In this document: positions 1,961-55,138 of the stretch, piece by piece
Layout: each line of letters starts with the position of its first letter
Position numbering within the stretch: the first letter of the stretch is position 1
Assembly: GCA_031213475.1 (NCBI GenBank)
Contig: JARUPZ010000005.1
Location: 10,983,260-11,047,259 of the forward strand
Reading direction: 5' to 3'
Source of the DNA: Nereocystis luetkeana
Taxonomy: Eukaryota; Sar; Phaeophyceae; Laminariales; Laminariaceae
DNA: 64,000 nucleotides
Notes under the pieces: generated by a model
What the model was told of the DNA's origin: nothing
The model's database searches: none
What the model saw: only the letters and a program-made list of their open reading frames with translations
Made by a program: the position numbers and the translations under genes

Positions 1961-2483
1961 CGCTGTGCGCGAGGCAAATGCCTTCATAATCGCGTGAAAA
2001 AAGGCAAAAAGACAAACAAACGTATACCTGGTACCTGGTACTAAGTAAGTCTGTCTATGATTGAAGTAACAATGTAGTAGGTGATGCCCTGTGTCTGCCT
2101 GTCTGCGCATTTTTTCCCCCCCGCCGACGAACAAGACGCGTGGCAAGCGCCACAGCGCAGCATTTCATCTCACGATCACTTACCATCTACCACCGCTGCT
2201 GTGCCTGTGGTACTGAACGCGCTGTGCGCGAGGCAAATGCCTTCATAATCGCGTGAAAAAAGGCAAAAAGACAAACAAACGTATACCTGTGGTACCTGGT
2301 ACTAAGTAAGTCTGTCTATGATTGAAGTAACAATGTAGTAGGTGATGCCCTGTGTCTGCCTGTCTGCGCATTTTCCCCCCCCCGCCGACGAACAAGACGC
2401 GTGGCAAGCGCCACAGCGCAGCATTTCATCTCACGATCACTTACCATCTACCACCACCGCTGCTGTGCCTGTGGTACTGAACG
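1961..2483 (+). repeat. 259-bp near-identical tandem duplication
   Basis: Unit 1 is 1961-2219 and unit 2 is 2220-2483. Both begin cgctgtgcgcgaggcaaatg and end tgtggtactgaacg. Differences are a few bases, including CCTGG versus CCTGTGG at the first of two nested TACCTGGTA words and one extra cac triplet in unit 2. The near identity implies recent duplication, or an assembly artefact. Confidence 0.9.
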
Positions 2484-3772
2484 TGCAGACAAAAGACGCG
2501 CGCGGTTTGAATGTTAGATCCAGGATCATAGACTACTGTAGATATATATATGATATGTATGTGTATGTTCATATAACGACTGACACATTTATATGCCATG
2601 CATGCCTCCACTGGCTTTCCGTCACCCACAATAAATAATACCCTGGTAACAATGTAATAGTATGCTTCGCGATCCTGACGTACCAAACACTGCTGCTGCA
2701 TACTGTTGTACCGCGAGACCACGAGCAGTATTCACACAACGCTGGTTGAGCGCTTATTGCTTGTGCTTTTTGCGCCGCTCCAATTGGCGCGAAACTCCAG
2801 GCAGTGGCCCGCGTGGGCTTATTATGTCCTATGTACGATATTTATTCGCAACATTTTAATCCTATTAATACTACTACTGCTGTCTGTAGATAGATGTATG
2901 TGCACAAGTACGACTCTTCTCCTACAATATACCAGGTATATATATATGCCGAATTTTAGAGGCGTGTGCCCAAAGGATCGCACTTTCGATTTGTCTCTGT
3001 TTTTATAATAGTTTTCTCTTTCATTGTTTCCCTTTCGTTTCTCTATTTCATAGAATGTGTATGTTGTGCCTGCCGTACCTACTATTAATATAATGACATG
3101 GCATTGTATTGCCCACTGCTGTGCTTACTGCATACATACGTGGCAACGTGGTATATCTGTGGCGTAGCTTTGTGACCACATAACTTGTATCTCTCCTATA
3201 ATGGGACTGAAGAATCGGCACGGACACTGGTTGTGCTGGATGTCGACCGGTAGAAAGAACGGAGAACATACACACACACATAACGAAAACAGGAAATCAT
3301 TACGCGAACTTGACGAGTATCAAGATACACCCTGACATCAGGGTACTACTGCTGCTGTAGTTCAACAGCGCTATGCAGCGTTGGTTTGAGATGCCTCGTG
3401 CCTCTGGTAACGGTTTTCTTTGCGTTCATGATGGATCATGTTGGAAGTTGAAAGTTCCAAAGTTCGCAGGTTCATTCCTTTCATGATAAACAAGCAATAT
3501 TCCGACGAAATTCAAAGCACTATTCCACCACTCTACACTACTCCATGCTCCATTTCAGGAACAAAACTCATCTGCTCAATCCGTAGACATGGCCACATGT
3601 ACATCATGCGGGGGAGGTGTTTATGACGCCAGCACAGTAGCTGAGGGCGGTGGTGTGTTGGCAGTGTTTTGGCTGATTTTTGTTTTGATGCTACAAAATC
3701 AAGAACTCGAACGCCTTCAAAATTGTTATAAAACCTTCACCATTATTAACATCTTGCAAACAAAACTTTTAC
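2484..3772. other. Intergenic, no gene recognised
   Basis: No supported gene. It contains TACCAGGTA at 2930 and TATTAATA at 2863 and 3083, which belong to the micro-insertion families described in the findings. The open frames here are short and carry no motif. Confidence 0.5.
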
Positions 3773-3925
3773 GTCACGGACGCAGCATCCGAGGGCCAGT
3801 ACTCGTCGGGCAGCTGCAGCCAGTATTTCCCCGTTATCACAGCGGACATCCTCGAACTACTTGCGGCGGACCCGCGTTTCTGTTGTTATCGCGGCAAGAC
3901 TCCGGCCGATCTCTCGGCAACGTAG
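3773..3925 (+). CDS. Possible 3' coding fragment, weakly ankyrin-like
   Basis: An open frame of 50 codons without an ATG ends in TAG. Its translation ends ITADILELLAADP, then RFCCYRGKTPADLSAT. The pattern of a helix with LELL, then AADP, then GKTPADL is what the end of an ankyrin repeat normally looks like. It could be a terminal exon or a relic. No upstream exon was identified, and no clear acceptor is seen before it. Confidence 0.25.
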   Translation, partial: VTDAASEGQYSSGSCSQYFPVITADILELLAADPRFCCYRGKTPADLSAT

Positions 3926-4547
3926 TCGCCGCTGACACGCTTTGTGAGGCGTGGGTTGTGTCGAAAAACCTTCACTGTTTTTTGCATCTTCGGTTCTACC
4001 CTCGTGGAGTCTCGTCAAGACAGGCCGAAAAGTACCTTCTCCTTTGGGAAGCGCATGGCCGTGGCGCGGGGCAGGCAAGGAAGCCTCGCTCTTCACATCT
4101 CGACCCAGGCTCACAGGTGCGCGTGGTGAACGGGTGTGGTTGGAGTGTGGTTTGGACATTGGTCTGTGTCGCAGGCGATACTCTAGAGTTTTTGTTGTTG
4201 TCCTCGTTTTTGTGTACGTAGGTGAATAGTACCTACCTATTTGTCCGACATTATAAGAAACGGTTTAACTGAATATGAATGGACAAGTGACCATTACATT
4301 TGGGTACAGATTGATACGGTGTGCTCTGCTTACGATAGACTGCTTTGAATATTCCGCACACTTTTTCACCCAATTAATAAATTACGAGCAAGAAATTGTC
4401 ACGCTCTCTCGCGTCGCACGTGGCTGGCCTCCATGTATGTACCAGTCTGTGATAGCAGCAGTCGGGAGTCAGAAGTATTTACGTGGGAGGGAGGGGAAGG
4501 TCTTGCAGAGTTTCCTTCATGGTGCAGTGATCGCATAAAGATTGCCC

Positions 4548-4550
<3 letters not shown>
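3926..4550. other. Intergenic, nothing recognised
   Basis: No motif or repeat stands out. Two overlapping open frames cover the first part, in different registers, and neither has recognisable content. Confidence 0.4.

Positions 4551-4590
<40 letters not shown>
4551..4590 (+). repeat. (CAG)13 microsatellite
   Basis: Uninterrupted CAG triplets. They read as poly-Ser, poly-Ala or poly-Gln on one strand or the other, so long frames crossing them are not evidence of a gene. Confidence 0.95.
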
Positions 4591-4593
<3 letters not shown>

Positions 4594-5432: not shown

Positions 5433-5554
5433 TATTACTGGGGACTGTAGTTAATACGATCAAATATTGTTATTAATAGTAGAAATGGTTAAATATATAC
5501 CTGGTAGGTATTTATGTATACCACAGGTCCTGTTGACTATGGTCCCCCGTAATA
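5433..5554. mobile_element. TA-flanked MITE-like element, copy M1, with two micro-insertions
   Basis: Terminal inverted repeats TATTACNGGGG...CCCCCGTAATA with an AT-rich core, degenerate at the left end. Compared with M2 and M3 it has two extra pieces. One is TACCTGG before TA at 5498. The other is TTAATA at about 5472. Removing them restores the core of the sister copies almost exactly. TA at both termini fits a Tc1/mariner-type target duplication. Confidence 0.75.
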
Positions 5555-6336
5555 CTTGTCTGCTGGTCCGTCGTCCGACTGAACGTCTCAATGTTCGATC
5601 ATCATCTGCGCAAGGTGCCGGAGAAGCCCGTTCGGTCACCCCCCCCTCCCTTAAACTTGATATATACGACCTTATTTCATTACCAGGTACCTGGCAGGTC
5701 TCAGCAGCAGCCAGCAGCCAGCAGCCCACCCTCGTTCGACCGGGCAAAGGTTGTCAGGAGACGGCACTTTCACCCCTTGACAGACAGCAGCTTTTGCCTT
5801 GACATGCGTTGACTGACACCAAACTACTAGGTTTTAGACTGAAACACTCGGCCCTCTACCCTTGACAGCGCACGTTTTTGCCGTGCTTGACATGTCTCCT
5901 GAAACGTCCGGTGACTGGTGACACCTGACCGCGCACTCGTCGCTTTGACTCGTTTTTCTCAGTGACGTCACGAATACAGCAGTCGGTGCCTGTAACGATG
6001 CCGCACCACTGCCGTGTTTATTGCTGTCGCACCAAGTACGCAGTTCCTGTTTGCAACGTGCTAAATAAAGCCGGCTTTGTGGCCAGTTTGGCCCGTTTTG
6101 GCTGCGGTTTGGGGTCAGGGTTATAGGGTTAGGCTTATAGAGTGAGGGTTTGGGCTGGGCCTTCGCCCGTACCTTGATCCCAACAGGAACCAAAATACCC
6201 GAGCAGCCTACCGACCTGAAGATGCGAGCTAACGGATAGTATTTCTCGTGGAACCTCGCCGGCTGTCGCTGATTGCTTCTTCCATTTGGTTGCTTTGCTT
6301 ACATGTACCAGTTATGTATCCGTACTCGTGCAGCAG
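5555..6336. other. Intergenic, nothing recognised
   Basis: Holds TACCAGGTA at 5681 overlapped by tacctggcagg. A short telomere-like tract (ggttatagggttaggcttat) lies at about 6119. No gene is supported. Confidence 0.4.
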
Positions 6337-6440
6337 TATTACGGGGGGCCATAGTTAATAGGACCAAATATTTTTAGTAAAAATGGTTAAATATATAGGT
6401 TTTTATGTATACCGTAGGTCCTATTAACTATGGTCCCCCG
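6337..6440. mobile_element. TA-flanked MITE-like element, copy M2
   Basis: Same family as M1, M3, M4 and M8. The left end is TATTACGGGGG and the right arm is GGTCCTATTAACTATGG. The final TAATA is missing and replaced by a run of about 16 T. It serves as an uninserted reference for M1 and M8 because it lacks CCTGG in the core and right arm. Confidence 0.8.
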
Positions 6441-7930
6441 TTTTTTTTTTTTTTTTTTTTCGATGTTCCTAGGAGATCTGGGTAAAAAAAGCTTACGCCC
6501 AACGCACTTTCTTATTTTTGTACCGGTTCTAGTCCATCTGAAGGACACAGGCTTTAACATGACACTCCGCCAGTGTACATGTCATGAACTTGCCGGACCT
6601 CTATGGTCGACCCCTTAAAGTTTCAGGTTCGATCAAGAGAGAGGTTGGGATAGATATTTAAAGGAATCAACACCTCATTTTGCTCCGTCTTTTACCTCGG
6701 TAGTGCGAGATTTGCCTGCGCCTGTTCATTTTTTATTTTCTGCATTTACTCTCCTATGGCTCCCCCGTGAAGGGACCCTGCTAGAAGAGTAGCGGCGGTG
6801 GGCCTCCACCTGCCGTCAGGAAAAAAGGCGCACTCGCTAAATAAACGCATTTGCCCTACTATGTTGACGCTCAGGCTTCGTATCCCCTCACGTTCTCAGC
6901 TCTCCAAAGACTTGGGGAACGTGCATACCATAGCACGGTTATACCCCTACCCCACACCTCGATCGGCGCATCGGCTCACCCTGATGAATGCCTCACACTA
7001 CATGTTTGCATGCGGGCTGGAGGCGGGTCGTTCCGCCCCCCCCCAATCTATGTTCCTCGATTCTGTAAACACCCACCGCCAGGTTAACGGTTATTGACCT
7101 CTCGGCCTCCACCTCAACTCCCACCCTTTGGTAACGGCACATCGCCTCTTGGTGTCTTTGCTTGGGGTGTCGCTTATTTTCTACTCACCACGTAGATTGG
7201 GCACCCCTTCTCTCCTTCTCCAACTCCGGAATCATAGACACGTGCTAAACTTGATCAGAGCGCACGTTTTTTTTTTTAAAGAGGTTTAAAATGTCTCGAA
7301 ACTTCCCGTCCTTTGTCCCAAGATCTCGGTCATTGTCTGTTGCCTTGCAGGTACTCGGCCTAATAGTAATAATCCGACGCCACGCATTTCGCTTCTACGG
7401 AGAGATACTCGTACGTATACCTAGTGGTATACGATACCCCGGTATGCGCTGGAGCAGCAAGTCACACTTGCGATACTGCTGCGTTGCACCCACGCTTTTA
7501 TGGCACCGGATACAGCAGCAGTGGTATAGCCGCCTTGGGACAGGGAATTTTGGTGGGCTTATTTATCTCCACTACGAGACACCATACTAATCAAGACCCA
7601 CCACGTACACGACAAACCTGTAATAATAGCAGATATTTTTTTTCTGGACTAATTTCGGTCCTGATCACGCCATGTTCCGCCGTTGTAGTATGGTATTATC
7701 TCGTACTACAGTTTTTACTATAGTATTAATAGTACACTACTCAAACAAATATTCGGTACGTACCACAAAGTTGTTCCAAGTACTTTTTTTTTTCGTGACG
7801 AACCGATTGGCCCTTGTTCACTCCACCCGAAAACGTTATAAGTTGGAGGGCCTTAAAGTGGGTGTACCACTGCTGTACCGGGTGCCGGTGCGTTAATTAG
7901 CTGCTGCTCAACATTTTCGATGAAGTTGAA
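6441..7930. other. Intergenic region upstream of the phosphatase gene
   Basis: No gene recognised. Contains TATTAATA at 7724. It presumably includes the promoter and 5' UTR of the gene starting at 7931, but I see no recognisable core promoter element. An out-of-frame ATG lies at 7920, 11 bases before the proposed start. Confidence 0.4.
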
Positions 7931-8052: not shown

Positions 8053-11000
8053 GTAGACTTCCTTGGATCCTATCCCCCCCTCTCCCCCCCCCCCGCCGCG
8101 CAAGTGATTGGACGCTGCTATCCGCGAACAAGAAAGTACGCACAAGGTGCCGAACTCCGCCTCATGAGCGGTTCCTCGTATTTAAGTGGTATTTAAGGAT
8201 GCAGCTCACCCTTGATGCAACTCGCCGAACGTCTAACGGCGCTTCGCGCTTGGTGCAAGCAAGGCCTACCTGGTCGGCGAAGACTCCACGTGCTCCGTCC
8301 CAGCGTCGTAGGGGTGCAAGCGTCTATGGTCATACGATTTACATACGGCCATGCGTCACAGCGATGACCCCCCCCCCCCCGCACCCCCTCCCGCCTCTTG
8401 CTGCGATACTTTTGTTGTTGTTGTTAATCTACATTAGTACCTAAGTTTAGGCACGGCTCCGCGGGATGTTCGTGCTCCCGAAAAACGCGGTGTAGATCTT
8501 CGTGTGTTGTCGTTGTCGTGCTCGTACTCGTCGCCGTACCCCACCCACCCCCCCCCACGCTTCGCTCCCTTCCCCCGCCGCCTTCTGCTTCAAACGGACG
8601 CGAAATCAATAAACAGGTGTCTCTCGGCAGGGCGTGCGCACCTCCCTCTTTCGGGCGGCAGCAGCGGTACCGGCAATTGTAGCGGAATCGGAAGCAGCAG
8701 CGGCAGCGGCAGCGGCGACAGCCTCTACCGCCCCTCCACACCACGTCCGAAAGCGGCAGGACCACCACTAGCAGGGCCGCCTCCAGCAGCGGCGGCAGCG
8801 GCGGCAGCAGCAGCAGCAGCAGCAACAACAACAGAAGGAGCGGAGCAAAAAGCTCAGCCGCCCTACTCCTATTCCCACCTCTCCTCCCCCGCCTTCTCTA
8901 CCCATCGTCACCTTTTTTCGTCATGCGCGACTTCCGATGACACGCCACGCCTCGCGGTCGGCGGCGAGAGCGTTGACAGCGGCGGAGGCGGCGGTAGCGG
9001 CAGCGGCCGCAGAAGAGCGGCGGCGGCGGCGGCAACGGCGGCGGCGGTGGTCGGGTCGGCGGTGAAAGTGACGCCGATAACCCCCGTTTCAAGCGAGCAG
9101 CTCCGCTTGTTGTCCTCGTTAGCGTCGTCGACATCTTTCTCGTTGTCGCCACCGCCTGGCGCCTTTGTCAGCTGTCCGCCGCTGCGGGGCTTGAGCCTCG
9201 GCAGAAGTGGCGGCGGCAGCAGCAGCGGCAGCAGCAGCAGCAGCAGCAGCGCAAGCGGTAGTGGTGGTGGGGGCGGTGGTTTCGTTTTCGCACAGAGGCA
9301 GGGTCGGCCGCGCCGAGAGGGGGCGGGGGTGGGAGCGGCACGAGGCGTTTCGTCGAGCGGGGGAAGGGGCTACCGGCGGCGCGGGTTTGCGTCGGCCAGC
9401 AGCAACCCCCCCGAGCAGTACTTGAGGTACATTCACCGGGTCAAAACGGAGCCCTCGGAGGAGGCCGCGCCGGTGGAGGTGAGGCTTAGGTTTCGTCTTT
9501 TGGCCTCGTTGTGTTTTTATGTGTGAGCAATACCTTTGGGGGGTGGTGCCTGGTTGCTTACTGAGCTCGCATTAGGTGCTCGATGTGTCATCCGAACACA
9601 TGACCTTGAATACGTTTATCTCGCGCAACCCCACTACCATCGACCCTTGTAGGGCTGCAGCCCCGTGTTGGGGACAAACTACTTGAAAAATGTAGTGGTT
9701 TGTCGACAAAGGGGACTGCACTCCTAACGAAAGGGTTCAGTAGCCTTGCGACAAATGGAGTATTATTAGTATAGTGTCCGGTACACTGGGAGTCGCTTGC
9801 TCGAGAAGCTCCACCGGCCAGGCACTGTTGCGCCCAAATGGTCCACACCCCTCCCCTCTTCGTTGAAGATAAGTCGTATTACGGGGGGCCATAGTTAACA
9901 GGACCAAATATTGTTAGTAAAAATGGTTAAACATATAGGTTTTTATGTATGCCATAGGTCCTGTTAACTATAGTCCCCCGTAATAGTCTCAGCTTCTGCG
10001 TTGTGGTCGGTGTAAGCGTCGGCATTGGTCGTTGATGTTGGGATTATGGCTGCGGGTGTTGGTGTTGGTGTTGGTGTTTTTTTTTTTTGAGGTTTGGTCG
10101 TGTTAGTGTCGGTGTTGGCGTTGATGCTGCTATATACGGTGAAGATGATGATGGCGTCGGCGTTGGCGGTGTTTGCGGTGTTGTTGTTTGATGGCGGTGG
10201 TGCTGGGGCGCTGCTGCTGCTGCTGCTGGTGTTGCTGCTGCTGCTGCCTCCGCCACTGCTGCTGATGTTGTTCTTGGTAGTTGTGCTTTGGTTTTGTTCG
10301 ATTTCGTTTTTTGTGGTTCCTTTTTTCTGTTTTCGGCGTCGTCGTCGTTTTTTTTTTTTTTTCTTGTTCTTTCTCGGGCGCTGCTGGGGTTGATTGGAGG
10401 ACCCGGAGAGCGGCCGCGGACATTTCGTTGTCGTCCTGCTCGATGGTCTCCTTTCCCTTGCTCTATAGCCGCTTTTCCGATCGTGCCGCTTTCTGGCCGT
10501 GCCTTGTGTTTCCCTCCGCCCTTTTTTTGTTGTTGCTGTTAGCGTATTGCTCCGCGTTCGCCGTACCTTTCTTTGCCTTTTCTTTTTCCTTGTCTTGCTT
10601 GCTTTTGTTTTCCTGACCCTTGCTTCCCCCCCCCCCCCCCCCCGCCCGCCTCGCAAACGCAATTAAATGTGGCTCTCCTTGTGGCATCGGCCAGCAGCCC
10701 TCTCCAAAGACACCAATCAGTGGGCGCGGCGCCGGCCAATCACGAGACGAGGACGGGGCCAGGGCGAGGGCGTCCCCGGAGAATGCCGTGGCGGCTGCGA
10801 GGGGGTCGGCTCGCTACCGGCGATCGGAGGGGGACAGCGAGGACGAGCTGGGGGTTGATGCGGATGGTCAGAGCAGGGAGATGACAAGGCGGTGGCTGAA
10901 GGGCTTTAAGGCCAAGGACATCCTCAGGGATAAGACGCTTCTCAGGCAGCAGTTGGAGGTGGGGCAGGGGTTCTCGGGGCGAGGGGCGGGGGTTTCTCGG

Positions 11001-11246: not shown

Positions 11247-11278
<32 letters not shown>

Positions 11279-14503: not shown

Positions 14504-14562
<59 letters not shown>

Positions 14563-17500
14563 CAGGGTCGATATATACATAGGGAGAGAAAGAGAGAGAG
14601 AGGCGGACTCAGTGTTTTTGGCAGCGTGTTCGTCCGATCGTGTGTCTCTCGTGTATCATGTACGTGCGTCGCAGAAAATCAATCGACCTTGCAGCAGGTG
14701 GCAGTGTTTTTGCAGGGTTGAACTCATAATACAAGCAACTGCGAGGGGGGCAACTTGATAAATATCATCTCACCAGATGGAGGCAACGCGTCCTCCTTTT
14801 CTCCCCGACCCCGCCGGCGCCCCCCGTCCGTCTCTCCCTCCCTCCGTCCCTACCACCGCGTTGTGCGTACGGGCGTGCTTCCTTGTCCTGCTCGTCCTGC
14901 TTGTGCTGCGTGTGCTGCTCGTCCTGCTTATGCTGCTTGCGCTGCTTGCGGTGGTCCTTTTTGTCCTGCTTGCCCTTTTTGTCCTGCTTGCCCTTTTTGT
15001 CCTGCTTGTCCTGCTTGTCCTGCTTGTCCTGCTTGTCCTGCTTGTCCTGCTTGTCCTGCTTGTCCTGCTTGTCCTGCTTGCCCTGCTTGTCCTGCTTGTC
15101 CTGCTTGTCCTGCTTGTCCTGCTTGTCCTGCTTGTCCTGCTTGTCCCGCCCTGGCGTTTGTGTGTTCGCTGCCGCCTGTGCCTTGCGCTCGTGCTTGCAG
15201 GGAGTCGGGCTCGACCCAGGGCAGAACCGCGAGGGGTGGAAGCAGAACTTCTCCGCTTCTGTGGGGGCGGTGGCATTGCCTCACCCCCACAAAACGCCCG
15301 ACGGCCTCGTCTCGGCGAACACGAGGGAACATCGGTGAGCCTCCCCCCCCCCCCCCCCTCCCGCCTCCCATCACTGTCTCTTGGGAGTGGCTACACTAAT
15401 CATTAAATTAACTCATTAAAGCTGTCATCCATATGTAACTCCGCCCCACAAGCTGTTCTTTGTATTGATAGGATACGCATTTACCCTCTATGCGACTCGC
15501 CGAGCGAACATCTCACGGCGCTGCGCACTTGGTGCAAACAAAGCCTGCCTGGTCGGTGAAAACCCGACGTGCTCCGTCCCGGCGTTGTAGGGGTGACGCG
15601 AGGGTCTACGGTCATACGACTACGGCTATGTATGATATCGAGTACACCCCTCCCCTCCACCCCATTTTAGGCATGCGATGTCCATGTGTGGTCATACGAC
15701 TACGCCCATTAATGACATTAGTACACCCCCCCCACCCCCCGCCCCCCATCCACCTCCCGCCGCTCTCGGACTAAAATATTCCCCTAAAATCGATTTTATG
15801 AATTTCCACTTTTGACGACGGCAGAGCAACCCGCCCTCCCCCCTCCTGCTGCTCTCGGACGTATTAAAAAGTATACTATTACGGGGGACCATAGTTATTA
15901 GGACCTATGGTCTACATAAAAACCTATATATTTCACCATTTTTACTAACAGTATTTGGTCCTATTAACTATGGTCCCCCGGTAATAAATATCATCGAAGG
16001 GATTCCCGATGGTAGCTCATCCCCGCCCCCCGCCCCCACTCCTCGCCGCCTGCCGCTCTCGAAATGAATGAGACTCCCCAACAACCGTAATATTCACCAC
16101 CTTCAATTTTGTTGTCATCGGCAGAGCCCCCCCCCCCCACACACACACACCCCACCCTTCCGCCGCCACCCTATATATTGAAACCCCTATATTAGCCGCA
16201 CCTTCATTCTGGGGATATCTTGGAACTTGGCAAAAAGAGTTGCGTAGAGTTGTGCAGTGTGTATTGATAGCACTTGGGTGTGTATGCGAACGTGCGTGGG
16301 ACAATGTTTCGCTAGTTCTCGTTTTTTTACGACAGGCACCCAACCCCCCCCCCCCCCCCTCTCCCCACCGCCTCCTCGCTCTCTCTGTCGCTCCAGACCC
16401 GCCACACGGCAGAAGTATCACGATCTGATGTAGGCCATCTGTAAACTTGATCCTAGCCTGCCGAACGATACCTTGTGCAGGTTCTGTGTGCGTCGTTCAG
16501 ATCCAACCCAAGACTAATGTTGCTGCGTACCTGGTAGGTTATAGTGCAGATTTGTGTGCCCCCCGCGCCCGTTAACGTTGGGCTTTAGACCGGGCCACGC
16601 TGATCAGCAATCTTTACCTACATCTGCCTGAAAAATGAACAACATATCATCAAGAGTGGAAGTCGATGATCTGCCCGAAGTGATGTATCGTATATAATAC
16701 GTCGATGTACACCAACATGCTTGGAACGATTTTCCACTCGCTCGGTTTTGACGGCTCCTGGTCCCCCTTCCCCCTTCCCCGTTTCTATACTGCTTCCTTG
16801 CTCTCATTGTCCCTCCAAACCCTTCAAACACGCACCGCCGGCCCCGCCGTAACGTTCTCATATTGCTCGGACAGGCACCTCGAGGTCGCAGACGATCCCA
16901 CGCTCAGCGAAGACGCCCACTTTGTGCTTGACGTGGCCTGGCCCACCCCGACGACCGACACGGTGAACTACGTGGGGCTTGCGGACGGGGTGGGCTCGTG
17001 GCGGAAGGTTGGAGTGGACCCGAGGGAGTTCAGGTGCGTGGGAGGGGAGGACGAGTGGGCTTGTTCGTTTTCTCATTACTATTTTCACTTTTTTTAAATT
17101 TTTCGTTCGTGTGTTTTTTTTTCATGTTTTTTTTCTTGTATGTGTATGTTTTTTGTCTTTTCCTGTTTTCTAATTTTCTGTGGTATTTGTCAGGGTTTGT
17201 TTTTGAGTGTGTGTTTTATGTGTATGTGTCTTTTGTCTTTTCTGGGTATTTTTTTCTCCGATTTTTTTCCGTGTGCATCGTCTTGTGTTTGTTTTGCTTT
17301 TGCTTTTGCTTTTGCTTCTTTTTTTTTTTTTTTTCGTGTTTTGTCGGCTGTTGAGTGTTTGGGTGGGTGTAGGGTAGGTTTGTGAGGGCAATGGGTGCTG
17401 GGTGCGTTCGAAATCGAGACGGCGGGAATCGGGAGGGGACAAAGGAAGCGCTAGGACTGTGTTGGTGTATGTACATGCACATTAATTTGTGTATTCATTT

Positions 17501-25730: not shown

Positions 25731-26473
25731 TTGTTGATAGAGTATGTACGAGTTTATAAAGGTCGTTCGGGAGGGCAATATAATATTCAAGCGGGGCTTA
25801 TTTTTGCGACCACGCTGAAGTTGAAAGAGGGAGGTGCGCAGTTTGAACACCAACGTTATCGAGCTGGCGAACGACGGCCACGGTGAGCACCGGGCTTCAC
25901 GCGGGGCGGGCGACGGGGCTGATTGTGGCAGAGAGTGATAAAAGCTTTACTCGGACCGAATCGGTAGCGAGGTGGTCGCGAGAGGGGCGGGCGGCGTACG
26001 AGGCTGAGAGAGAAGCTCTTCTGTGCGATTTTTTATTTTCTTCTTTTCGACCGGGTGTAAGGTGTTCCAATCAGGCAGCAAAATATTACACGAGGGGGGA
26101 CGGGGATTTTTTTTCCTTTCCGAGTTTTCGGTTTCATTTTCATTGTTTTTGCTGCTGTGCCGTGCTGTGCTTTCGCTTTCTTCGTACATACAGTACAGAC
26201 ATACCAGGTAGAGCATATCGAAAGAAGAAAATAGGTACAGACAGTAGTACCCTACCTGGGGTGTATGTACGTACGTACGACATCCGCGACGCGAAGCGTA
26301 TATGTGGCATCCAAGCTGACGTCGGAGCTGTTTTTTCCTGAAGCATGGCGGCGGGACTCTTGGCATTATCAAGTCGCCGGTTTGCAATTACGATCCTTGA
26401 AAAACTAAACTCAATCGTGGACCTCTGTTCGCTTCGCATAATATGATGTTTTTTTTTCTTCCTGAGCAAGCGT
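25731..26473. other. Intergenic, nothing firm
   Basis: Includes the possible small exon noted under exon 15 and TACCAGGTA at 26202. No other signal. Confidence 0.4.
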
Positions 26474-30870: not shown

Positions 30871-31518
30871 AGATGCAGCACCGGCTATGGGCGAAGGGCA
30901 TCTGTCTAGTCGTGGGGTATTTTGGGTATTTTGGGTATTTTGGGTGAGCGGAGCATGTTTCGGTGCTGTAGCTTCGGATAGGCTCCTGTGTCGTACCAGT
31001 ACCCAATGCGTTTTTGCTTGCGAAATGTTTTCGGCTCGCCCCTTACCTGATCCTCGGTGCGGCAATCGACTGATGGACAGAGGAGAACAGGTTGTACCTG
31101 GTACCTGATACGTACCGCATGTATTTGATTCGTACGTGCGCGGACCTCCCTTTATATGTTTCGTCTGAGGTGTAGATGTGCTTCAGTTATCATGTGTACT
31201 CTTTGCTTGTTTTATTTTTCACCAGCATAATTGCAGTGTACCACAATACGCACAGCGTGCCATGTGTTGGATACGCGTAGCATGTCACTGTTAGTTGCCC
31301 GGCTTCGAAATGCTAACATAATTCATACGCGCCTCAGGGGTCCCTGGGGTGTACCGGAAAATGAACCCTCCGAAGCCACACCCACACATTCCTATATTTC
31401 CGAGGCGTATACTAGACAGGGGGCGTCGCACTCGAAGCCAATAAAAAGTTGATTCCTTCTGTGTTGCTTTCTGTTCTGGTTGGCAGTTCCCAAAAACTCA
31501 AAACCCCAACCTTCACCT
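30871..31518. other. Intergenic, nothing recognised
   Basis: Contains three units of GGGTATTTT (30917-30945) and TACCTGGTA at 31095 abutting TACCTGATA. No gene is supported. Confidence 0.4.
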
Positions 31519-31619
31519 TGACCCCTTTTAGGACTGCAGTCCCGTTTTGGGGACACACTACTTGGAATTTGAGTGACTTTTCCCCAAAACGGTACCGCGG
31601 CGCTACCGTAGAAGGGTTA
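31519..31619. mobile_element. TTAA-type MITE-like palindrome, copy P4 (degenerate)
   Basis: Arms cttttaggactgcagtcccg and the rough complement ending agaagggtta. It is followed by two telomere-like ccctaa units and, at about 31684-31722, a further half arm of the same family. Confidence 0.7.
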
Positions 31620-43254: not shown

Positions 43255-44670
43255 GCAGGAGAAACAGTATTTGCGAAGGCGTTAGTAGCTAGGCAATAGA
43301 TAGTATAGGTTGAATTCGATTCAACCATTCGTCGTCCGAGGGTAATTTATTTACGTGATATCTACGATACTCGCAAGGGTTACGTGTGGACAGGGTTCTC
43401 GTTGCTGCGGGGTTGCCTCCTTCACCACGACTACTATTTACGATGAACCACGAAGAGAACCTCCTCTTCGGACTGGGGCAAAAATATAGCACGTTTTGCG
43501 AAACAACGGGAAACCAGCATAAAATTGGGACGAACGCCACCAAATCGCTCGTACACTGCGCCCGTCCGTGTCACTGCACTCGGCCGCGACATAATTGGGG
43601 ACATGTCGAATGGAAGACGTCCTCGTGGTGTTCACGCCCGCCCAGTTTGACGTGGACAGGCTCGTAACCATAACGGTACGATAACCAGAACGGTACGACG
43701 ACTTTGGAAATGAAGAGGCCCCAAGGGCCCCTTCTTAGTTACGGAGGAACTTCAACACCTCATATCCCTGGGGCGTTGACATTTATTGTTGCAGTTGCGG
43801 TTGTGCTCTCGGCTGCTGATATTGTTGTGGTAGGCACTATGATCTCTATCGCTTGTTGTGTCTTTCTTCTTACGTTATCGCCCTACGCTTGCGCATTGTT
43901 CCAAGATAGGCACATCATAAAAGTCAATACAATACGAAATATATCTCGATATGTTGAAAACGCGCGCCCGGTGAATACTCACCCCCCCTCTCTCTCGCCC
44001 TGTTTCATGGGGGAGCCTATTCGCTGGGGCAGTGGTGTACACAGTGCCCTGGTTAGGGCACAATTTAATGTCCCCAGACCACCCACAGAGAGATCCGGAG
44101 TGACTGGCCTATAGTAGGTGTAGCCCTTGATTACATTCTCCGTAGAAGCAATGTATCCATACTTTGAACGAATCGGGCGGAGACATCACTACCCGATGGA
44201 TAATATATATATATGTATATTATACCAGGTATGTATGTATTCACAGACGCCGTTCCCGTAGGACATCTCTGCTCCTATTCAGCGGACCTCTCCAGTGAGG
44301 TCAAACTCGCGGAGTGACTTTGGTGGACAAGAACCAAAGTTTTGTCGCAAGAGCCGACGCCGCAGACACAGCGCTCAGTTTGTGAGTGACGGAGGTGTGG
44401 CTGAAAAGGATAAGAGGGAGCGCGCCCAGTGACAGTAGTCTCCCGACCATCAACAGGAAGTGCCTGACTTGCTTAAGGCGACGCCCCTGACTAGAGTGTG
44501 CGTGAAGACGATGGATCGATGATTTGACGACACAAGTACGAGCTCACACACGCAAGGGTGCAGGACAGGTTCTTCCTGACGTGAGGTTTGTAGGAGAACA
44601 CCGCGTAAAAAAACAGAAAATGTTGACAGCATCCGAATCGATTCGACGGAAATAACTTCTTACCAGACGG
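43255..44670. other. Gap between two minus-strand genes
   Basis: No firm gene. A plus-strand frame at 43704-44114 (136 codons) contains a long hydrophobic stretch (ALTFIVAVAVVLSAADIVVV onward), but it has no homologue I recognise. TACCAGGTA occurs at 44223. The upstream region of the module A gene should lie just above 43254. Confidence 0.35.
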
Positions 44671-46299: not shown

Positions 46300-46305
46300 C
46301 TACAG

Positions 46306-48369
46306 TAAGACAGGAGTGCATGGACCGGTATGGGTGGCGTTCGGAGGGGAGGGGCGTACGTATGACCACTCTATATACTCGGCAGCCCGCCCATGCCTTT
46401 TCACCTCACCTGCTCAATACCTTCGTACGAGCATGTTTGGTAGGCTTACCTGATCAAAACCGGACGGCGACGTACTCCGTGCTCCGTTTTGGGTCAACGA
46501 CGCACGAGCATCCCTTAAATTTATTTGCGGTTTTAATTAAAATCGAAGCCGCACTCATCACTGAGGTTTAGGACTACAGTACCTCATTACCCCGCAAATC
46601 CGCCTTTTAAAAAATTGCAATTATCTATGTAGGTCGAGCGAGTTTGTCCTTGCGGGTGCGTTGCACGAGACCATATTTAAACCACTTGTAGTAATATTTT
46701 GGCAGTAGTGCTCAACGGCTGAAGAAGCGGAAAGTGTTTCCTTTGACATTTTCGGGTTTCGTAGACAACCAGACCCGTTAGAAAGTCGTTGGAACGTCGT
46801 TCGAATGCGAGTGGGATGAACGTCGCGTTACGGTTAGATCATACCTGGTACTAGGCAAACGAGGGGATCAAGAATCACAAGTTTAAGAACGTGGACGTTG
46901 CATGAGAAACATCGTCTGGTATTGCTGTTGTGGGTTGGGGGCAATGTCGAAAACGGTTGAGCTCCGGCTCGAATTTTGGAGTGGCATATTACTGATTCTG
47001 CGCCGATCCATCTCCTTCGGGGCCCGTGTATGGATACCGCAAAAGCAACCAGTAAGTGCACGCAAAGAAGGCCTGCAAGGGTGCAAATATGTGATCATGC
47101 TGAGCGCGCTTCGTATACAGCATCATACTAATTACGCCGTCTTTCATTGCACTTCGGCCCCGTCCCGTACCCCAGCAACCGGGTAGGGCTGCTTCGTGTG
47201 GTCGAGGTGCTGTATACGGTAAGTAGTCGCGACCCTTTTTCGATACATATATACGTTTTTTTCCCGTCTGAAGTCCCGAAAGGGATAACAACTGATAGAG
47301 CTGTAGTGCGTCGTTGAGAGGTGCGTGGTGCCTGGTACGTAACGTAACAACCCTAATACCGCTTGCACTCCAACCACTTGGACAACGGACGGTAGAACAG
47401 TAGTACACTCTGCCGAGAGCAGCCAAGATCTATCCCGCAACCTCGAAGTTGTATGGGCCTTCCAAGTGCCTTCCAAGTCCTTGCCGCCCCCACCACGAGA
47501 CTTGCGCCAACATACATACGGACTTATTGACATTTACATCTTGTCTGCGGCCCGTACATCAGGCGCAATAATTATGTACGAGGATCGCCCGTCTCTTGGT
47601 TAGAACGGCAAATGCACTGATAGAGCAGTACATGACATCTACAGGTAGTTACTGACAACAACAACACGAACGATATGAAAGGCGAGCTGATATTTACAGG
47701 AACTACGAAACACGGAAACCGACATGCCGAGTTTTTTTCAACTCTACGAGTGCATACCGCACTCTTTCTCAAGTCATACGTATATCTAGCCTGTTGGGCC
47801 GGCACGCCTGCTTCTAGCAATATGGTAAAGCGCAACTAACTGTTAATACTGCTGTATCATTACCGTGCATACTGCTGTGGTATCCCATGCTGAAAATGTT
47901 AATACTACGTATTATTATTCATAAAAAACACGACATTTCACCTCCGAGCGATGAAACATAGAACACGTCGAATGTCCCGATATCCGATACTGAACACGAC
48001 CGCAAGGACAGGGCGAAGTCACCGGTGAAGGGATTTTTTGGCGTGCAAGTTGCAGTTCGAGAGATCTGATAATGGACACCCTGGGAGGCGCAACTTCATG
48101 AGGATGTAAAATCAATACCCTGGTGGTAAGTATGCAAGCAATATGCCAGGTATCGGTCAATCAATACGGAGAGTGAATCGGCACTCCATAAACGTCTTGA
48201 CATGATTGCATAAACATGGGAAACACCACCTCTCTCTCTATGTCGCACTGCCCGCAACCAAAGCTGATACTGCCAAAACTCCGGACACCAAAAACCCTGG
48301 AACCACGTCTGCCCGCGTTTTTTTCCTGACAATTTTTTCGTAATTCCGCTCTAGCTCCGAACGTTCCCA
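46306..48369. other. Intergenic, nothing recognised
   Basis: Should contain the 5' exon(s) of the membrane protein gene. A donor-like gatcag|gtaagcc (minus strand, about 46449) is a candidate, but the in-phase frame before it has a stop close upstream. TACCTGGTA lies at 46843. Confidence 0.4.
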
Positions 48370-48805: not shown

Positions 48806-48919
48806 GTTTTATTTTCCGCCTTTTTAGATCCTTGTCCTGTTGTGTTCTGAAACTAACTGCATATTCAACGAAACGACACATGCCATGCTATTTTATTTTG
48901 GGCGGAGACATTGCAGTAG
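48806..48919. other. Short spacer, nothing seen
   Basis: No signal. Confidence 0.3.
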
Positions 48920-49049
48920 TATTACGGGGGACCATAGTTAATATGACCAAATATAGTTAGTAAAAAAGGGTAAACATATGCCAGGTAGGCTTATTTCTTA
49001 TTTCTATACCATAGGTCCTACCTGGTATTAACTATGGCCCCCCGTAATA
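48920..49049. mobile_element. TA-flanked MITE-like element, copy M8, with two CCWGG micro-insertions
   Basis: Intact ends TATTACGGGGG and CCCCCGTAATA. Relative to M2, M3 and M4 it has TGCCAGG before TA in the core (48979) and TACCTGG before TATTAAC in the right arm (49019). Deleting either 7-mer restores the sister sequence. Confidence 0.85.
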
Positions 49050-49772
49050 GTGCTGGTGGGCTGATGCGGAAGTAGGTATCTACGAGTATGTATGTGTATA
49101 CCAGGTAGATTTTTCGGAAGGTGATAAACACAAGGATACCATACGCAGTTCATAAGACGATGAATGACCGGCCTGGCAACATATATATATCGGTGTGCAA
49201 GTAAGTGTGTGTTCCTTGTATCGGAGCGATGGCCGATTCAGATCATGCGGTACGGGGCCGAAAGCCCGATATCGGATACCCATATTTTCCCGAAGAACTA
49301 TTTAATGCGAGGCGGAAATATGCCAGGCCATGCTACCGCCGAGGAACATGCGTGTTTTGCTTTGTCGAATTACTCACCGTGGACACTCTGAACGGGGGCG
49401 GCAGTAGAGCAACATGCCCCCTCTTCCTACAAAAAAGACGTTTCTTCAATAATTAATAGGTAGGATATCGCGTGACATTCCATTCCCCGATTTCACAACC
49501 GATACAATTTCCCAGTGCTGTATTAATAGTCGGGATATATATCCGATACGATGCCCAACACTACATTGTAACAGTAAGTAGTAGTGCTGTTAGCCGTGGA
49601 TACACACCAGGTAGATTTGTACGTGCGGGCCGTTGCTGAGTTGTTGTTGCAGCACCCTGATGAGCACACGTCAGCCGACAACCGGTGCACTTCAGATGTT
49701 TTGTTTCGTTTTGTTTTGCTCACCACACATGCCAGATCTCGGATGTGAACGAGATGCTTCTACTGTCCACAG
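49050..49772. other. Intergenic, no firm gene
   Basis: TACCAGGTA at 49099 and TATTAATA at 49521. A plus-strand stretch around 49205-49380 reads a peptide of plausible composition (RGRKPDIGYPYFPEELFNAR), but no start or splice evidence supports it. Confidence 0.35.
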
Positions 49773-49929
49773 GTACGACAAGGCCGAAGTCGCAACGACG
49801 CCAAACGAGTTTGCCAGAAAGGCGCCCACACGGAGAGCCTCCATGACAGACCTGGCCGATCAGCCGATCAACGATGCTGCGATATCAACAAACGGCGAGG
49901 GGGGCCAACCAGGGGAGGGACCCCTTTGA
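49773..49929 (+). CDS. Possible terminal exon of an unrecognised gene
   Basis: After the acceptor-like ctactgtccacag, a frame reads RYDKAEVATTPNEFARKAPT, then RRASMTDLADQPINDA, and stops at a TGA (49927). It is hydrophilic and rich in Ala, Thr and Pro, like a disordered C-terminus. The third codon positions are mostly G or C, as in the phosphatase exons. No upstream exon was identified. Confidence 0.35.
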
Positions 49930-52900
49930 GCGGACAGAAGAAAGAGACACAGGTAGGCCACGGGTTTGAGATGTAAGGAGGGAATGCAGGCCAACTGTAG
50001 CCTGTTGATATTTGTGATGTTTCTCGGGCGAGACGACGACAGCAACCTCTGCATCATATATATGGTGCATGCATTCATACGTGCTACCAGTATAAAACTA
50101 CACCCGGGATCCGGTACAGTATTATTGCAACTCGTATCCTATCGGATCCCAGGTACCAGGTATGTGATACGCCTGAAATCTAGTTGACCGAAAAAGTAAA
50201 CGACTCTTCAAAAACCGCCGGCTGCGCTAGGTTCGAACCTTGCAGCGAACCGTACCCACGAATTGATCTCGACGACCCGCAGCCGCCCTGGAGCTAGCCG
50301 TACACTACAGGCTACTGTCTATTACCTGGTATATGATACGCGTGAGTTGCTACAAGCCGTATCATGCCAGCTCTTGATCTGTGCCAATTATACTCCCAAC
50401 GTATATAAAGAACAACAACAGCCGTTTTGCCAACAGGAACAATACGTGCCGATCTGCCCATGGACGAAGTATGTGCAAGCACAAATACGAACGGACGGAG
50501 ATATGCAGGCCCATGGACTAAAATGCCGTACCTATTGCGCGACCATGCGCTTTTCCCTTTCTTTGCCCGATCGATGTCGCCGATGACAAAATGGCTGCTT
50601 AAGCCTGAAGGCTACCAGTTGACCGCTCTCTCTCTGACATAGACACGTTTGCGAGGAATGACGACACTGCTGTTGTTTGAGAAAAACCTGGTCGAGCGCT
50701 ATACATACATACGTACAGTAACCGTCATATATATATAATATGCCAAACAAAACGTCTCCTTCACTGAACACGTGTAACCGTATCCGTATCTGTTCGTCGT
50801 GAAATAATCCGATATCCGATAATATATCCGTTTCGAACAAACCACTGTACCAGGTACAACTACTACGCTAAAATAGTAATCGTATTAATTGATTTTTTTT
50901 TTTTTATTGGCATGCCTATCAAGATCAATTTCGTGGGTTCAAGTAAGTCTCACTGAGGGCACATGCTCGGAGGGACGGTTTCTTGCATGAATACATTGAC
51001 TAGCGGAAAGCGCGAGAGCGTGAGTTAGCTACATTCGATAAAAATCGACGAGCAGTGGGAATGCTGAACCCTATGCGCGACAAAAAATATAAAGGCACGT
51101 ACCGGGGGGGGAGAAGGGACGACACCTGTGACCACGGCTTGTATAGAAGATCGCCGAGGGTAAAACCTCCTACGAGCTAGGCTGGAAAGTAAAAGTGATG
51201 AACAAAAAAAAAAAAACACTTGAGGATGTAGATATTTCAGGAAGATGAGATGCTATCATCCTCTCTGTTCGTGTGATATATATAGTAGCTACTTGCACGA
51301 TCTATTCGATATTATTTATACTTGTATTTATAGCTTTATGCTTTGTTTACAGTAGATCTGGTCAATAATGAATGGTACAGATCCTGCATAGCATCGCATC
51401 ATTCATACGTACCGGCAAATTGTTGCAGGATCCGGATAATCTACTGTTGTTGTTGTCGATCGCGATCTATCTGTCCGATGATCTGCTTAGTTACACAGGC
51501 CTAGCGATGTCCTTGATAGGGGCCACAACACCCCCTCCTTTTCTAGTGTATTTCCTCACCTCAGCCCTTGCACTGCCTTGCTGCTGGGGCCAGTCAAGTC
51601 GTCATCACCCCCGCCCTCCACAGCAAGAACGAAACTTGTATTGTGGCGAGACACCACACCTTTGCCTCAACGCCCCGTCGTATCTCTACTTATTATGTAC
51701 TCCAGCAAATAACTGTCTGCATCGCACCGATCGATGGGCTCTTCTTCTGTAGGAGTATACCCGAGAGAGACCAACCACTGTGCTACATACAGCCTTATCG
51801 TTTCGGGCATGCGACCAACCAGGTGCTACTGTTGTGTTGTAGTGTACCGGGTACCTGGTAGGCACAGCAGTAAGTCATAGTTTTATGTCCAATAGGCCAA
51901 CGCTGAGCGAAAGCCCTATTTATAACACTACTACCGTGCCTGCCCAACATCCGCAAAACGGCCACCAAGAATCGCACGATGTAAGGGAAAAAACACCTGA
52001 CATCGGTGTTTGAATTCTACGGCAAGCCAGTGGTTTGCACCTCAGGTCCGCGAGAGCTAGACGATCCTGCAGTACAGCAGGTAGTAGTATGCAAAGCACC
52101 ATCGTCGGCCGAGCGGAGAAAAGGCTGTTCGGATTCTTTGATTCGCAGTGGTGGAACCGGAAACATTTGGCACGTCGTGGGCATCACTGCAGATACTAAA
52201 CCTGGTACCAGGGTTTGTAGTAAGCTGGGTGCAAAATCCACCCATAGACTTGGCATGCCCTTGGCCAGCTAGAAGGAATGGCAAACCAACCCAAGCGACG
52301 TCAAGAGGGAGGGTGCTCGAGTTCTCAACCGATCGGCCGTTGAATCTCCCGGAGGAAGCGACATACTACGTACGTGGTAGGCACAGAGACGCCATGCAGT
52401 CTGAAAAACGAAGAAAGCCAGCGGCACGGAGAAGAGAAGACAGGCACCGAACAGACGAGGCAGCATAGTCCTCTTGCTGCCCACTAACTACTCCGTTGCA
52501 TCCGTCCCCTCCGCCATCGATGTTCCGTGGGTATGCTTTAATCTTAGATGCACCCGCACGAGGTCTGGTAGCCTCATACGGTGATCTGGCAGCAGGAATT
52601 TACGCCCACAACAATCAGGGTTCAACAAAGAACTTCACTCAATGATCAATGACGTATCAGAATATTCCGGCCACTTTCCCCTGGAACATCCCGTGAGACA
52701 CCCCGTGAGATCTCATGCAATTGCTTGTGAGATCGTATCCCTTATGGTCGCCTTTCCCATGGAATTGACCATCGAATAGGAGATGCTTCGAGGTGGGCAA
52801 TTGCCCCACGCACGTACTAGCGGCATCAGATTTAGGACGAAACCAACCAACTAGGAGAGCAGGAGTCTCTGCGGAGTTACCTCTGAACGTACTGACTAGA

Positions 52901-53192
52901 GAAGGGCACCGGTGAATAATCAAACAGATTACCGTGGCTTGGAAACCTGGCAGGCGTGGTGTGCACATATTCGTCAGAGACTTAATGTGAGAACAACAAC
53001 AAACAACAACTCGTAGTCGGTCGTTGGGAAAAGTCAACTGGCAGTTCTGCTTAGGTCCGATTCACAGGCCCACCGTCGAAAACGCTACAAACACCGGCTG
53101 AATCGGTTAAAACTGTTAAACTCGAAACACTGGTAGACCCATCTTTGTTCTTCTACGGATTACTCCGGGCTGGGCAATCGATACATCGTTTT
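49930..53192. other. Intergenic, nothing recognised apart from micro-insertion words
   Basis: TACCWGGTA at 50154, 50323, 50848 and 51852. The first two sit in near-identical local contexts (GGTATRTGATACGC direct repeat), one as CCAGG and one as CCTGG. No gene is supported. Confidence 0.45.
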
Positions 53193-53268
53193 ACCCCTAC
53201 AGCTCAGTAATTAAAACCTTCAAATTAAGGGACGTAGTGAGGGCACGGGTTCGAACCTCGATTGGAGT
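53193..53268 (+). other. tRNA-like relic (pseudogene or SINE head)
   Basis: ACCCCTA then CAGCTCAGT resembles the start of a tRNA with its A box. At the right distance ACGGGTTCGAACCTCGA resembles the T arm and B box. The terminal TTGGAGT pairs with the first seven bases at 5 of 7 positions. The D stem and anticodon stem are poorly formed, so a functional tRNA is unlikely. Confidence 0.35.
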
Positions 53269-54166
53269 GTTTTGTCTAGATGAAACCACTTGCGCGTGCG
53301 TCACTAAGGCCCCGTATTAACGAAATACTGTTATTTTGTAGAAAAACAGTTAAATATAGCTTGGTTTTATTTGAATATCATGTCGGTGAGAAATAAATAT
53401 TGTTGGGGGCCCAACCGAGAAAAGGCGTACTGCAGCGTTCTGAATTTCGAACAACGCGAAAGGTTCATCGAACACCCGCCGGCAACCAACGAGGCAAGCG
53501 ATCGCAACCAACCATCCTTCTCGGAGCGCCGCGGCCAGCGGACACATTTTGTGGGCACCGACCAGGAGGCTATTGCTCTTGGTATGTCTTTGAAGCAGTC
53601 GACTACACGGCTCAGGTTTGCGGGCTTGCTTCGGGGTCTTCGTGGAATATGCCACGTCGAGTTGGTCAAAACTCCCCAGATTGAATAATAATATTGAAGG
53701 ACGAGAGAACACAAGTCTCAATAGACTTCTTGTTGAATTTGGTCTTTTCTGTTGCTCATTAATTCTCGGTGTTAAATATTCTGATCCAGGCGAACCACTC
53801 TCGCTGTCGTGCTGAAACGCATGCCAGTTCTGTGGCGATCCCACCAGGATCATCAAAACCCGTAGTGATGCCCTCGTAAATTGCTGCCACTACAACCCCG
53901 CTCGATGCTTAATGTTATCAGCCAACCCGAAAACGTGCGCCCCGCACTTTCCCCTGCGGGGCAAAGTAACAGGTAATAGTCACTCCTATATAATATCGCT
54001 ACGCGTACGTCACCACGAGCCTTACAGCTAAACATTCGGACCGACTTGCGCAGCTTGTTTCTCCCCCTGTCCCGAGCAACAGAGCGTCCGGGTAGGAACG
54101 TCGATCGACGAAACAAGCTTGTCTCGTTGTCTTGTACCTCGCCGTAATCATAACAGCATCTCTGAT
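53269..54166. other. Intergenic, nothing recognised
   Basis: About 53325-53360 faintly resembles the MITE core (aaaaacagttaaatata), too diverged to call. Long frames here on both strands lack motifs. Confidence 0.35.
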
Positions 54167-54226
54167 GTCAACATATCTACCGTCAAGACAAGCTACGTCA
54201 ACATATCTACCGTCAAGACAAGCTAC
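54167..54226 (+). repeat. 30-bp tandem duplication
   Basis: Two identical units beginning gtcaacatatctaccgtcaa. Confidence 0.95.
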
Positions 54227-54415
54227 GACTGAAGGAGAACCAGCCGTCTCCTTCGTGTACTCCGTACGCCGGTAGTTTGTTGCCTTTACTGTCCCGTGTC
54301 GACTAGAGACTGGACGCTCTCGTCGTGTTCGTGTGTCGACGGAACACAAATCTTAATCTGTTTATCAAATTAAAACGCGGTCCGGAACCACCACTTTCCT
54401 GCGGAAACCTAAAGG

Positions 54416-54607
54416 TTGTTATTGCTCAAGCCTTCTCGAAACCATATGATTCTACTGCAGGCGTTTCTTCAGCTGGCGAAGCACGCTCGCTGTTGGGGTG
54501 AGAAGTTCTGCCTGTGCTGTGGCAAACCTGGCAACAGCGCCAGGACCTGTTGTGAGGTCGACGCAAGTACTTACCACAAAAAAAAACCGCGGGGCTTGAT
54601 GGGATAG
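54416..54607 (+). pseudogene. Possible gag-like fragment with a degenerate zinc knuckle
   Basis: A short frame contains FCLCCGKPGNSARTCCE, which has the spacing C-x2-C-x4-N-x4-C of a retroelement zinc knuckle with the His replaced by Asn. It is followed by a Lys-rich stretch. The only support is this motif. Confidence 0.25.
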
Positions 54608-55138
54608 GAGGCGTTCTACGGTAGACGTTCACCCTAATGTTTCTTAGGCTCCTCACTGAAGGAGCTCCATACCTCACCCGAAAACTGATTTCAGCAAAAA
54701 TAAAATTGCGTCCCGATGACCAATCCCATGGTTCGAGTATACAAAAACGTCATTTTTCGAACCAAGCTTGGCATTCCGACGAGTTCGGGTTAAGGACCCC
54801 CGTCATTCAGAAAACGTTACAGCGGAAATGTGCTACCTCTACCATAGAACGCGTCAGAGACAAACCTTAGAACGTATGTACGCACCCTCCCTTACGGTGC
54901 TACCAGGTAAGTAACATCTCGCACCAGGAGGCCAGCCTGACCATAAAGCTTCCACCCCCACTACTACAAAAAACTATCAACCCAATCTGCCTCATTGTTG
55001 CCAGAACAGTGGAGACGGAGTCTGCTCCTTGCCCAACCTCGCGCACGTACGACGTAAGGGCTCAAGCCTCCCACCTGCCCGCTCGCTGGATTTGAATATT
55101 TAGAACGCCTTGCGCCCCGAGCTGCGTTGGCCTCTCGA
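54608..55138. other. Intergenic, nothing recognised
   Basis: TACCAGGTA at 54901. No gene is supported. Confidence 0.35.

Follow-up and report, generated by a model that had tools for sequence, protein, structure and literature searches.

The 9-bp word TACCWGGTA (W = A or T) is scattered through the genome of the brown alga Nereocystis luetkeana in great excess, and where copies of a repeat with and without it could be compared (for 8 of 139 words), it had arisen by insertion of 5 bp together with a duplicated TA. The analysis was centered on a 64,000-bp stretch of contig JARUPZ010000005.1 (GCA_031213475.1, forward strand, 10,983,260 to 11,047,259), referred to as the window. Insertion, duplication of TA, a target rule and shorter scars derived from one side only were each observed. 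The words are probably scars of a TA-targeting transposon, low in copy number or lost, which would leave 5-nt overhangs and follow a rule of 7-bp spacing between TAs.

Abundance of the word

All 22 words that the sequence-only reading had counted in the window were found, with starts from 2025 to 54901. The genome-wide count proposed there as a check came out far above the control, with 182,395 words in 465,085,209 bases (1,987 contigs), or about one per 2.5 kb, vs. 1,744 for the control pattern read backwards. The tandem 16-base word TACCWGGTACCWGGTA was found at 15,917 places in the genome vs. 2 for its control, and also in 9 stretches of the IMG/VR viral collection. Since TACCAGGTA and TACCTGGTA are reverse complements of one another, 'W' is a single word read on two strands and does not on its own argue for an ambiguous center; the informative point is the rarity of S (G or C) at the center, with 12 TACCSGGTA vs. 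132 words in 316 kb.

In a 264-kb sample (the window and 20 unselected 10-kb stretches), 101 words were counted vs. 1.7 expected from an order-3 Markov model of word-masked sequence, 17.5 from an order-5 model (unmasked, the words being contained in the model) and 39.8 from the product of the two half-words (unmasked). Under the order-5 model the ends of a miniature inverted-repeat transposable element (MITE) family, here called M, and some simple repeats scored equal to or above the word; by raw count the word ranked about twentieth among the 9-mers of the window, the higher ones being simple repeats or minisatellite. CCWGG accounted for 101 of the 1,053 TA-N5-TA cores in the 264 kb, the runner-up core for 23. 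The excess was thus confirmed as real and genome-wide. A literature search for the words as whole words gave no match, although letters within longer sequences would escape it, and an Rfam search of the window gave 0 matches.

Four loci (L001-L004, 12 kb of the 276-340 kb used) were chosen for holding tandem words. They were excluded from the Markov and half-word expectations, the TA-N5-TA core count, the decay count, the TA hit rates and the offset scan; they were counted in the results on lone half-words, terminal inverted repeat (TIR) pairs, word sides, the M alignment, the insertion catalogue, the alignments of 139 words, the flanks of non-tandem words, the comparison of neighboring N5 with CCWGG, flank scores (z), the ladder of scar lengths and flank collapsing.

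Comparison of filled and empty sites

The M family (about 103-112 bp, ends TTACGGGGG, TA at either end) is represented by five copies in the window. In its alignment of 25 rows, some partial, from 276 kb, the empty state predominated and different copies were filled at different TAs: in the core (the word at 5498, the mutated word at 48979 and a mutated word in L019), in the arm (49019), and at others in L017. In one L017 copy both of two TAs spaced 7 bp apart are filled, reading TACCTGG-TATTTAC-TACCTGG-TA, and the genome-pattern matches listed included M copies joined imprecisely at the core. The empty site was a single TA, and in the filled site TA was duplicated around the insert, as in a Tc1/mariner footprint. 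The words and M copies of the window are listed below; words have no strand, and they come from the pattern count unless another source is named.

2025-2040: double word in tandem, TACCTGGTACCTGGTA, with starts at 2025 and 2032; the locus at 2293 is a direct repeat of it
2293-2301: word, duplicate of the 2025 locus, upstream word altered by a 2-bp difference (also repeat alignment)
2930-2938: word in AT-rich target, ataTACCAGGTAtatata (also flanks)
5433-5554, + strand: M copy (M1 of the sequence-only reading), word in core (M alignment)
5498-5506: word, filled site; 7-bp gap in 17 of 28 alignments crossing it (M and repeat alignments)
5681-5689: word, followed by another TACCTGG unit, a half word starting at 5688
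6336-6441, + strand: M copy, word sites empty (M alignment)
9876-9987, + strand: M copy, word sites empty (M alignment)
15875-15986, - strand: M copy, word sites empty (M alignment)
16528-16536: word
26202-26210: word, filled site; 7-bp gap in 4 of 4 alignments at about 91% identity (L025 twice, L004, L018; repeat alignment)
27861-27869: word in AT-rich target, agtaTACCAGGTAtatact (also flanks)
29321-29336: double word in tandem, TACCAGGTACCAGGTA, with starts at 29321 and 29328
30558-30566: word
31095-31103: word
44223-44231: word in AT-rich target (also flanks)
46842-46850: word
48919-49051, + strand: M copy (M8 of the sequence-only reading), two TA sites hit (M alignment)
48979-48987: mutated word TGCCAGGTA in the core of the M copy at 48919-49051 (M alignment, insertion catalogue)
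49019-49027: word, filled site; 7-bp gap in 20 of 20 alignments to M copies (repeat alignment)
49099-49107: word
50154-50162: word, preceded by CCCAGG, likely a decayed tandem unit (also flanks)
50323-50331: word
50848-50856: word
51852-51860: word, preceded by TACCGGG, likely a decayed tandem unit (also flanks)
54901-54909: word

The three before/after pairs claimed for the M family, at 5498, 49019 and the mutated TGCCAGGTA, were all seen in this alignment. The extra bases at M sites are probably not ancestral, the empty state being the common one there. That each event adds CCWGG and one TA was borne out by the repeat alignments and by the insertion catalogue.

When 139 words were used as queries against repeat copies in the sample, 21 were crossed by at least one alignment and 118 by none. 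The 122 word-crossing alignments comprised 57 with a 7-bp gap (at 8 words), 5 sharing the word, 30 with a 2-bp gap and 30 mixed. Among the 8 gap-pair words, that at 8155 of L007 was poorly aligned and that at 7420 of L013 stood at 69-74% identity; 29 of the 30 2-bp gaps came from the M copy at 7521 of L017, where other copies read TACC(A/G)TA. The cleanest empty/filled pairs, at 88-93% identity, were the word at 1557 of L025 against window position 26231, L018, L004 and L025 itself, and the word at window 26202 against L025, L004 and L018. When insertions between repeat copies were catalogued with no prior on the word, the TACCAGG rotation class had 8 entries at 6 places among 1,331 insertions of all lengths and made up 8 of the 39 that are 7 bp long; among classes of at least 4 bp, those ranking next had 7 and 6 entries, not de-duplicated.

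With 118 of the 139 words outside any repeat copy aligned in the sample, and flanks that share only other words, the words are not parts of one long repeat. The same figure argues against replication slippage, by which a 7-bp TACCWGG unit would expand and disperse as a minisatellite, and the repeat copies show one unit inserted into TA, which refutes slippage as the sole cause; this origin is very improbable. A functional palindromic binding site (origin, regulator or methylation motif), kept or spread by selection, would account for a word that is near-palindromic and very abundant. We regard it as very improbable: words arose by 7-bp insertion where this is visible, mutated copies are common, and placement tracks TA context.

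Target site

The flanks of 92 non-tandem words were palindromic (R, a purine, at -1 and Y, a pyrimidine, at +1, then Y/R, then A/T), with the consensus AYR-TA-YRT, and ATA preceded the TA 4.2-fold more often than at all TAs. Tc1/mariner-type transposases likewise use palindromic AT targets, and in PMC7913693 the target of ZB is given as ATATATAT. Hit rates were calculated on empty sites restored by removing the 7-bp units (304 kb, 16,144 TAs, 109 hit). They rose with the palindrome match from 0 of 405 TAs at no matching position to 2.0% at five of six, and stood at 1.3% (4/301) at six.

Unexpectedly, and unforeseen in the sequence-only reading, hit TAs very often had a further TA at a distance of exactly 7 bp to the left or right. 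Hit rates were 0.40% (56/14,048) with no such TA, 2.3% (45/1,986) with one and 7.3% (8/110) with two, and a scan of TA offsets from 2 to 24 peaked at 7 (6.3-fold; offset 2, 3.8; offset 4, 2.6). Some neighboring N5 are decayed words, 11 of 68 being one mismatch from CCWGG vs. a background of 5.5%; the dose response survived removal of N5 with up to 2 mismatches (0.40%, 1.9% (30/1,582) and 6.4% (5/78)). Two words separated by N5, that is, on TAs 7 bp apart, were found at 3,210 places genome-wide vs. 0 in the reversed control. Any footprint is itself a TA-N5-TA of the favored kind, and the 15,917 tandem pairs may in part be due to this; over the 304 kb, 9 extra hits on existing words were counted vs. 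0.74 expected at the average rate.

Scar lengths and the element end

Cores shorter or longer than the word were read from one side only. TA-CCAG-TA was counted 38 times vs. 11 for TA-CCTG-TA (Fisher test, 2e-5; 35 vs. 10 with similar flanks collapsed, 4e-5), TA-CCA-TA 50 times vs. 15 for TA-CCT-TA (3e-4; 42 vs. 14 collapsed, 0.002), and TA-CCAGGG-TA 7 times vs. once for TA-CCTGGG-TA (0.05; unchanged by collapsing). The cores CCAGGA, CCAGGC and CCAGGT were each counted 0 times. Flanks resembled those of words for CCAG (z = 7.4), CCAGGG (3.6) and CCA (3.2), vs. 0.5 for CCTG and 1.5 for CCT; the score was trained on words, so that the words' own z is not independent, and z scores include repeats. 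Collapsing reduced 132 words to 75 clusters, a figure that we read as due in part to chaining of tandem units and AT-rich flanks. Over the 316 kb, footprints of 5 bases numbered 132 (the words) and those of 4 bases 38. As the shorter scars are read from one side only, they point to an element end 5'-CCAGG.

The core GGACC scored z = 7.1 as an M-family match, and other high flank scorers were mostly AT-rich cores. TA-CAG-TA, TA-CGAG-TA and TA-CGAC-TA, also in excess, were rejected as sister footprints, their flanks having no target signature (z = 0.1, 0.8 and -1.4). In the window and sampled loci, TACGAGTA (43 vs. 14.5 expected) and TACGACTA (24 vs. 5.6 expected) were likewise in excess with the target signature absent.

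Proposed mechanism

A cut-and-paste transposon ending in 5'-CCAGG would insert at TA and duplicate it. On excision, the transferred strands would be cut at the element ends, with the opposite strands cut about 5 nt further in, so that 3' overhangs CCAGG remain on both flanks. Four of the 5 positions in these overhangs would pair, the A:A mismatch would be repaired to either base (A or T), and end joining would seal TA-CCAGG-TA; scars that keep 3, 4 or 6 end bases would be rarer, as the base content of the variants suggests. The transposase would favor TA in AYR-TA-YRT where a further TA lies exactly 7 bp to the left or right, so that each scar, being TA-N5-TA, would become a good new target and tandem arrays would build up. 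The transposase, its overhang chemistry and the identity and copy number of its element are all postulated. Scars are inherited with or without a surviving element, so a low-copy or lost element can leave far more scars than copies.

Single-mismatch neighbors of the word were found at 111 places vs. about 45 expected, an excess of about 66 per 101 intact words in the 264 kb; the two S-center classes in this count are one set of places, counted twice. With about 66 decayed copies over background, the scars are not all young. The excess corresponds to a decay of about 0.07 substitutions per site if the scars are of a single age, or to somewhat fewer decayed copies than a steady process predicts, and the process is neither brand-new nor long dead.

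Observations that weigh against excision

A series of results counts against an origin by transposon excision. The first concerns the element. By eye, 111 lone TACCWGG half-words had no common inward sequence bar a few near-duplicate loci. CCAGG-starting, TA-flanked TIR pairs within 3 kb and 9 kb (276-316 kb) were word-on-word matches only, apart from one weak pair, and 277 word sides (276-340 kb) shared only other words. A genome search with Pfam DDE_3 (PF13358), in which 30 candidates were scored, gave no hit at E 0.001. The TA-targeting transposon with CCWGG ends proposed in the sequence-only reading is upheld as to TA duplication, palindromic target and one-sided CCAGG scars, and not as to the element, for which neither a TIR family nor DDE_3 was found. 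A family of a few hundred copies is not expected to show in 316 kb, and a low-copy source may for that reason still exist.

The second concerns the orientation of units in arrays, read by eye genome-wide on the first places listed (59 of 15,917 tandems and 50 of 3,210 N5-separated pairs). The 59 tandem pairs among the matches listed comprised 40 of the same orientation, 14 A-T and 5 T-A, and those in 316 kb 8 AA/TT, 3 A-T and 2 T-A. The 50 N5-separated pairs comprised 20 triple arrays and 30 with another N5 between. Outer units of the 20 listed triple arrays were A-T in 14, the same in 5 and T-A in 1. Independent random hits would give 50/25/25, at odds with the tandem and triple orientations. 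A first and T last is the orientation of two facing element ends, and given this bias a mechanism producing two or more units in a single event is conceivable. Array units with orientation bias were also seen at L020 8111 and L010 1558.

Lesser points are that flanks of TA-CA-TA were word-like (z = 5.3) and those of TA-CC-TA were not (1.2), that rare six-base cores had a doubled center (CCATGG 3, CCAAGG 2), and that at least 10 of the 50 TA-CCA-TA were the M family's own TACCATA, which weakens the CCA step of the ladder. We know of no Tc1/mariner precedent for the 7-bp TA spacing rule. The word also has 5 bases between its TAs vs. the 2-4 bp given for Tc1/mariner footprints in PMC7913693.

The orientation counts bear on two of the alternatives. 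The excess of equal orientation in tandems (40/59 among the matches listed; 8 AA/TT of 13 in 316 kb) is what slippage would give, and slippage may contribute copies inside arrays; it may explain equal units and not the A-first, T-last order. The listed pairs flanking another N5 fit random orientation (16 same, 6 A-T and 8 T-A of 30, not de-duplicated). Slippage also predicts neither the AT-palindrome target nor the one-sided ladder, since the C run and the G run should change alike.

The other is a self-spreading micro-insertion with no element body, in which an enzyme, for example a domesticated transposase, adds TACCAGG at TA-N5-TA and each product is a new preferred substrate. The half-word, TIR, word-side and L011 searches that found no element, the sharp 7-bp spacing equal to the unit's own length, the 3,210 N5-separated word pairs and the 15,917 tandems, and an orientation bias in arrays that independent excisions do not predict all speak for it. 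The one-sided ladder CCA / CCAG / CCAGG / CCAGGG resembles variable cuts into one element end, and if there is no element it is hard to say where a fixed CCAGG would come from. We consider such a process possible, though rather unlikely.

Candidate elements

A TA-flanked sequence of 383 bp at L011 8129-8511 has inverted ends of 16 bases that match imperfectly and start with CCAGA/CCAGG, and it contains a run of units resembling CCCTAA. It was rejected as the source: of its ends CCAGACACATAACAAA / CCAGGCACCTACCAAA (13/16 bases paired) the exact right end occurs once in the genome, as a single copy. With up to 2 mismatches the right end gave 62 genome matches (control 11), many of them words.

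The genome pattern ATATACCAGGG gave 333 matches vs. 220 for its control. Among 100 matches listed, 4 continued with CTTTTCGCGGGTCAGG or near it, by which a hAT-like family was found (L038-L045; related repeat at window 22055, - strand). It has a TIR 5'-CAGGGCTTTTCGCGGGTCAGG, an 8-bp target site duplication (TSD) near GTAAATAC and an interior rich in GGGTC repeats, and a genome-wide count allowing up to 3 mismatches gave 1,422 termini. Where the TSD ends in TAC, the family's termini read TACCAGGG and were picked up with the word pattern, so the words might be taken for ends or footprints of this family. The TSDs of 8 bp (exact in 4 of 7 two-ended loci, L040, L041, L044 and L045; one change in L039 and L042; two in L038; no pairable second end found at L043) differ from the word's 7-bp insertion with a 2-bp duplication. 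TSD length refutes this origin, to which we assign almost no probability.

Pfam searches of 29 open reading frames from the window and sample gave one weak rve match, under its cut-off.

Relation to known systems

In Tc1/mariner excision, according to PMC2874221, a few terminal element bases are left between two TAs by end joining. The word resembles the footprints of Tc1, Tc3, mariner, Sleeping Beauty and ZB in its duplicated TA, short insert between TAs and palindromic AT target. It differs in strongly favoring TAs that have a partner TA at 7 bp, and in about 182,000 scars vs. an element not found in the searches made. The process appears to work like Tc1/mariner excision, yet is not filed as a member because of the longer footprint, a spacing rule new to us, and neither element nor transposase having been found.

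Internal eliminated sequences (IESs) of Paramecium are, according to PMC3464196, TA-bounded and PiggyMac-dependent, with an end consensus TAYAGYNR like that of Tc1/mariner. They share TA-bounded events at genome-wide scale with the words; the word does not match TAYAGYNR, and 7 bp are added to the genome read, whereas an IES is removed from the somatic copy. MITEs that insert at TA, among them the M family, are likewise TA-flanked, dispersed and present in many copies, but the word has no internal sequence, and M ends are TTACGGGGG rather than CCAGG. Unlike in hAT elements, the duplication is 2 bp and not 8 bp.

Other repeats in the window

A short palindromic MITE-like repeat around GAACTGCAGTCCCGTTTTGGGGACA lies at 1134-1228, 20393-20487 and 31516-31615. 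A minisatellite with an 11-bp unit like ACTGTCCACGG extends from 33383 to about 36290, nearly 3 kb with inverted blocks, and an array of GTTGGT-like units of about 1 kb at 20964-21912.

Significance

If the words are footprints, the genome would be a readable record of up to about 180,000 past excisions, outnumbering any element seen, and this record would give the end sequence, cut positions and target rule of a predicted transposase. Assuming a steady state, we estimate from density and decay that about one footprint would have to form per 285 substitutions for the present number to hold. The 7-bp spacing of TAs gives a target complex a concrete feature that can be tested.

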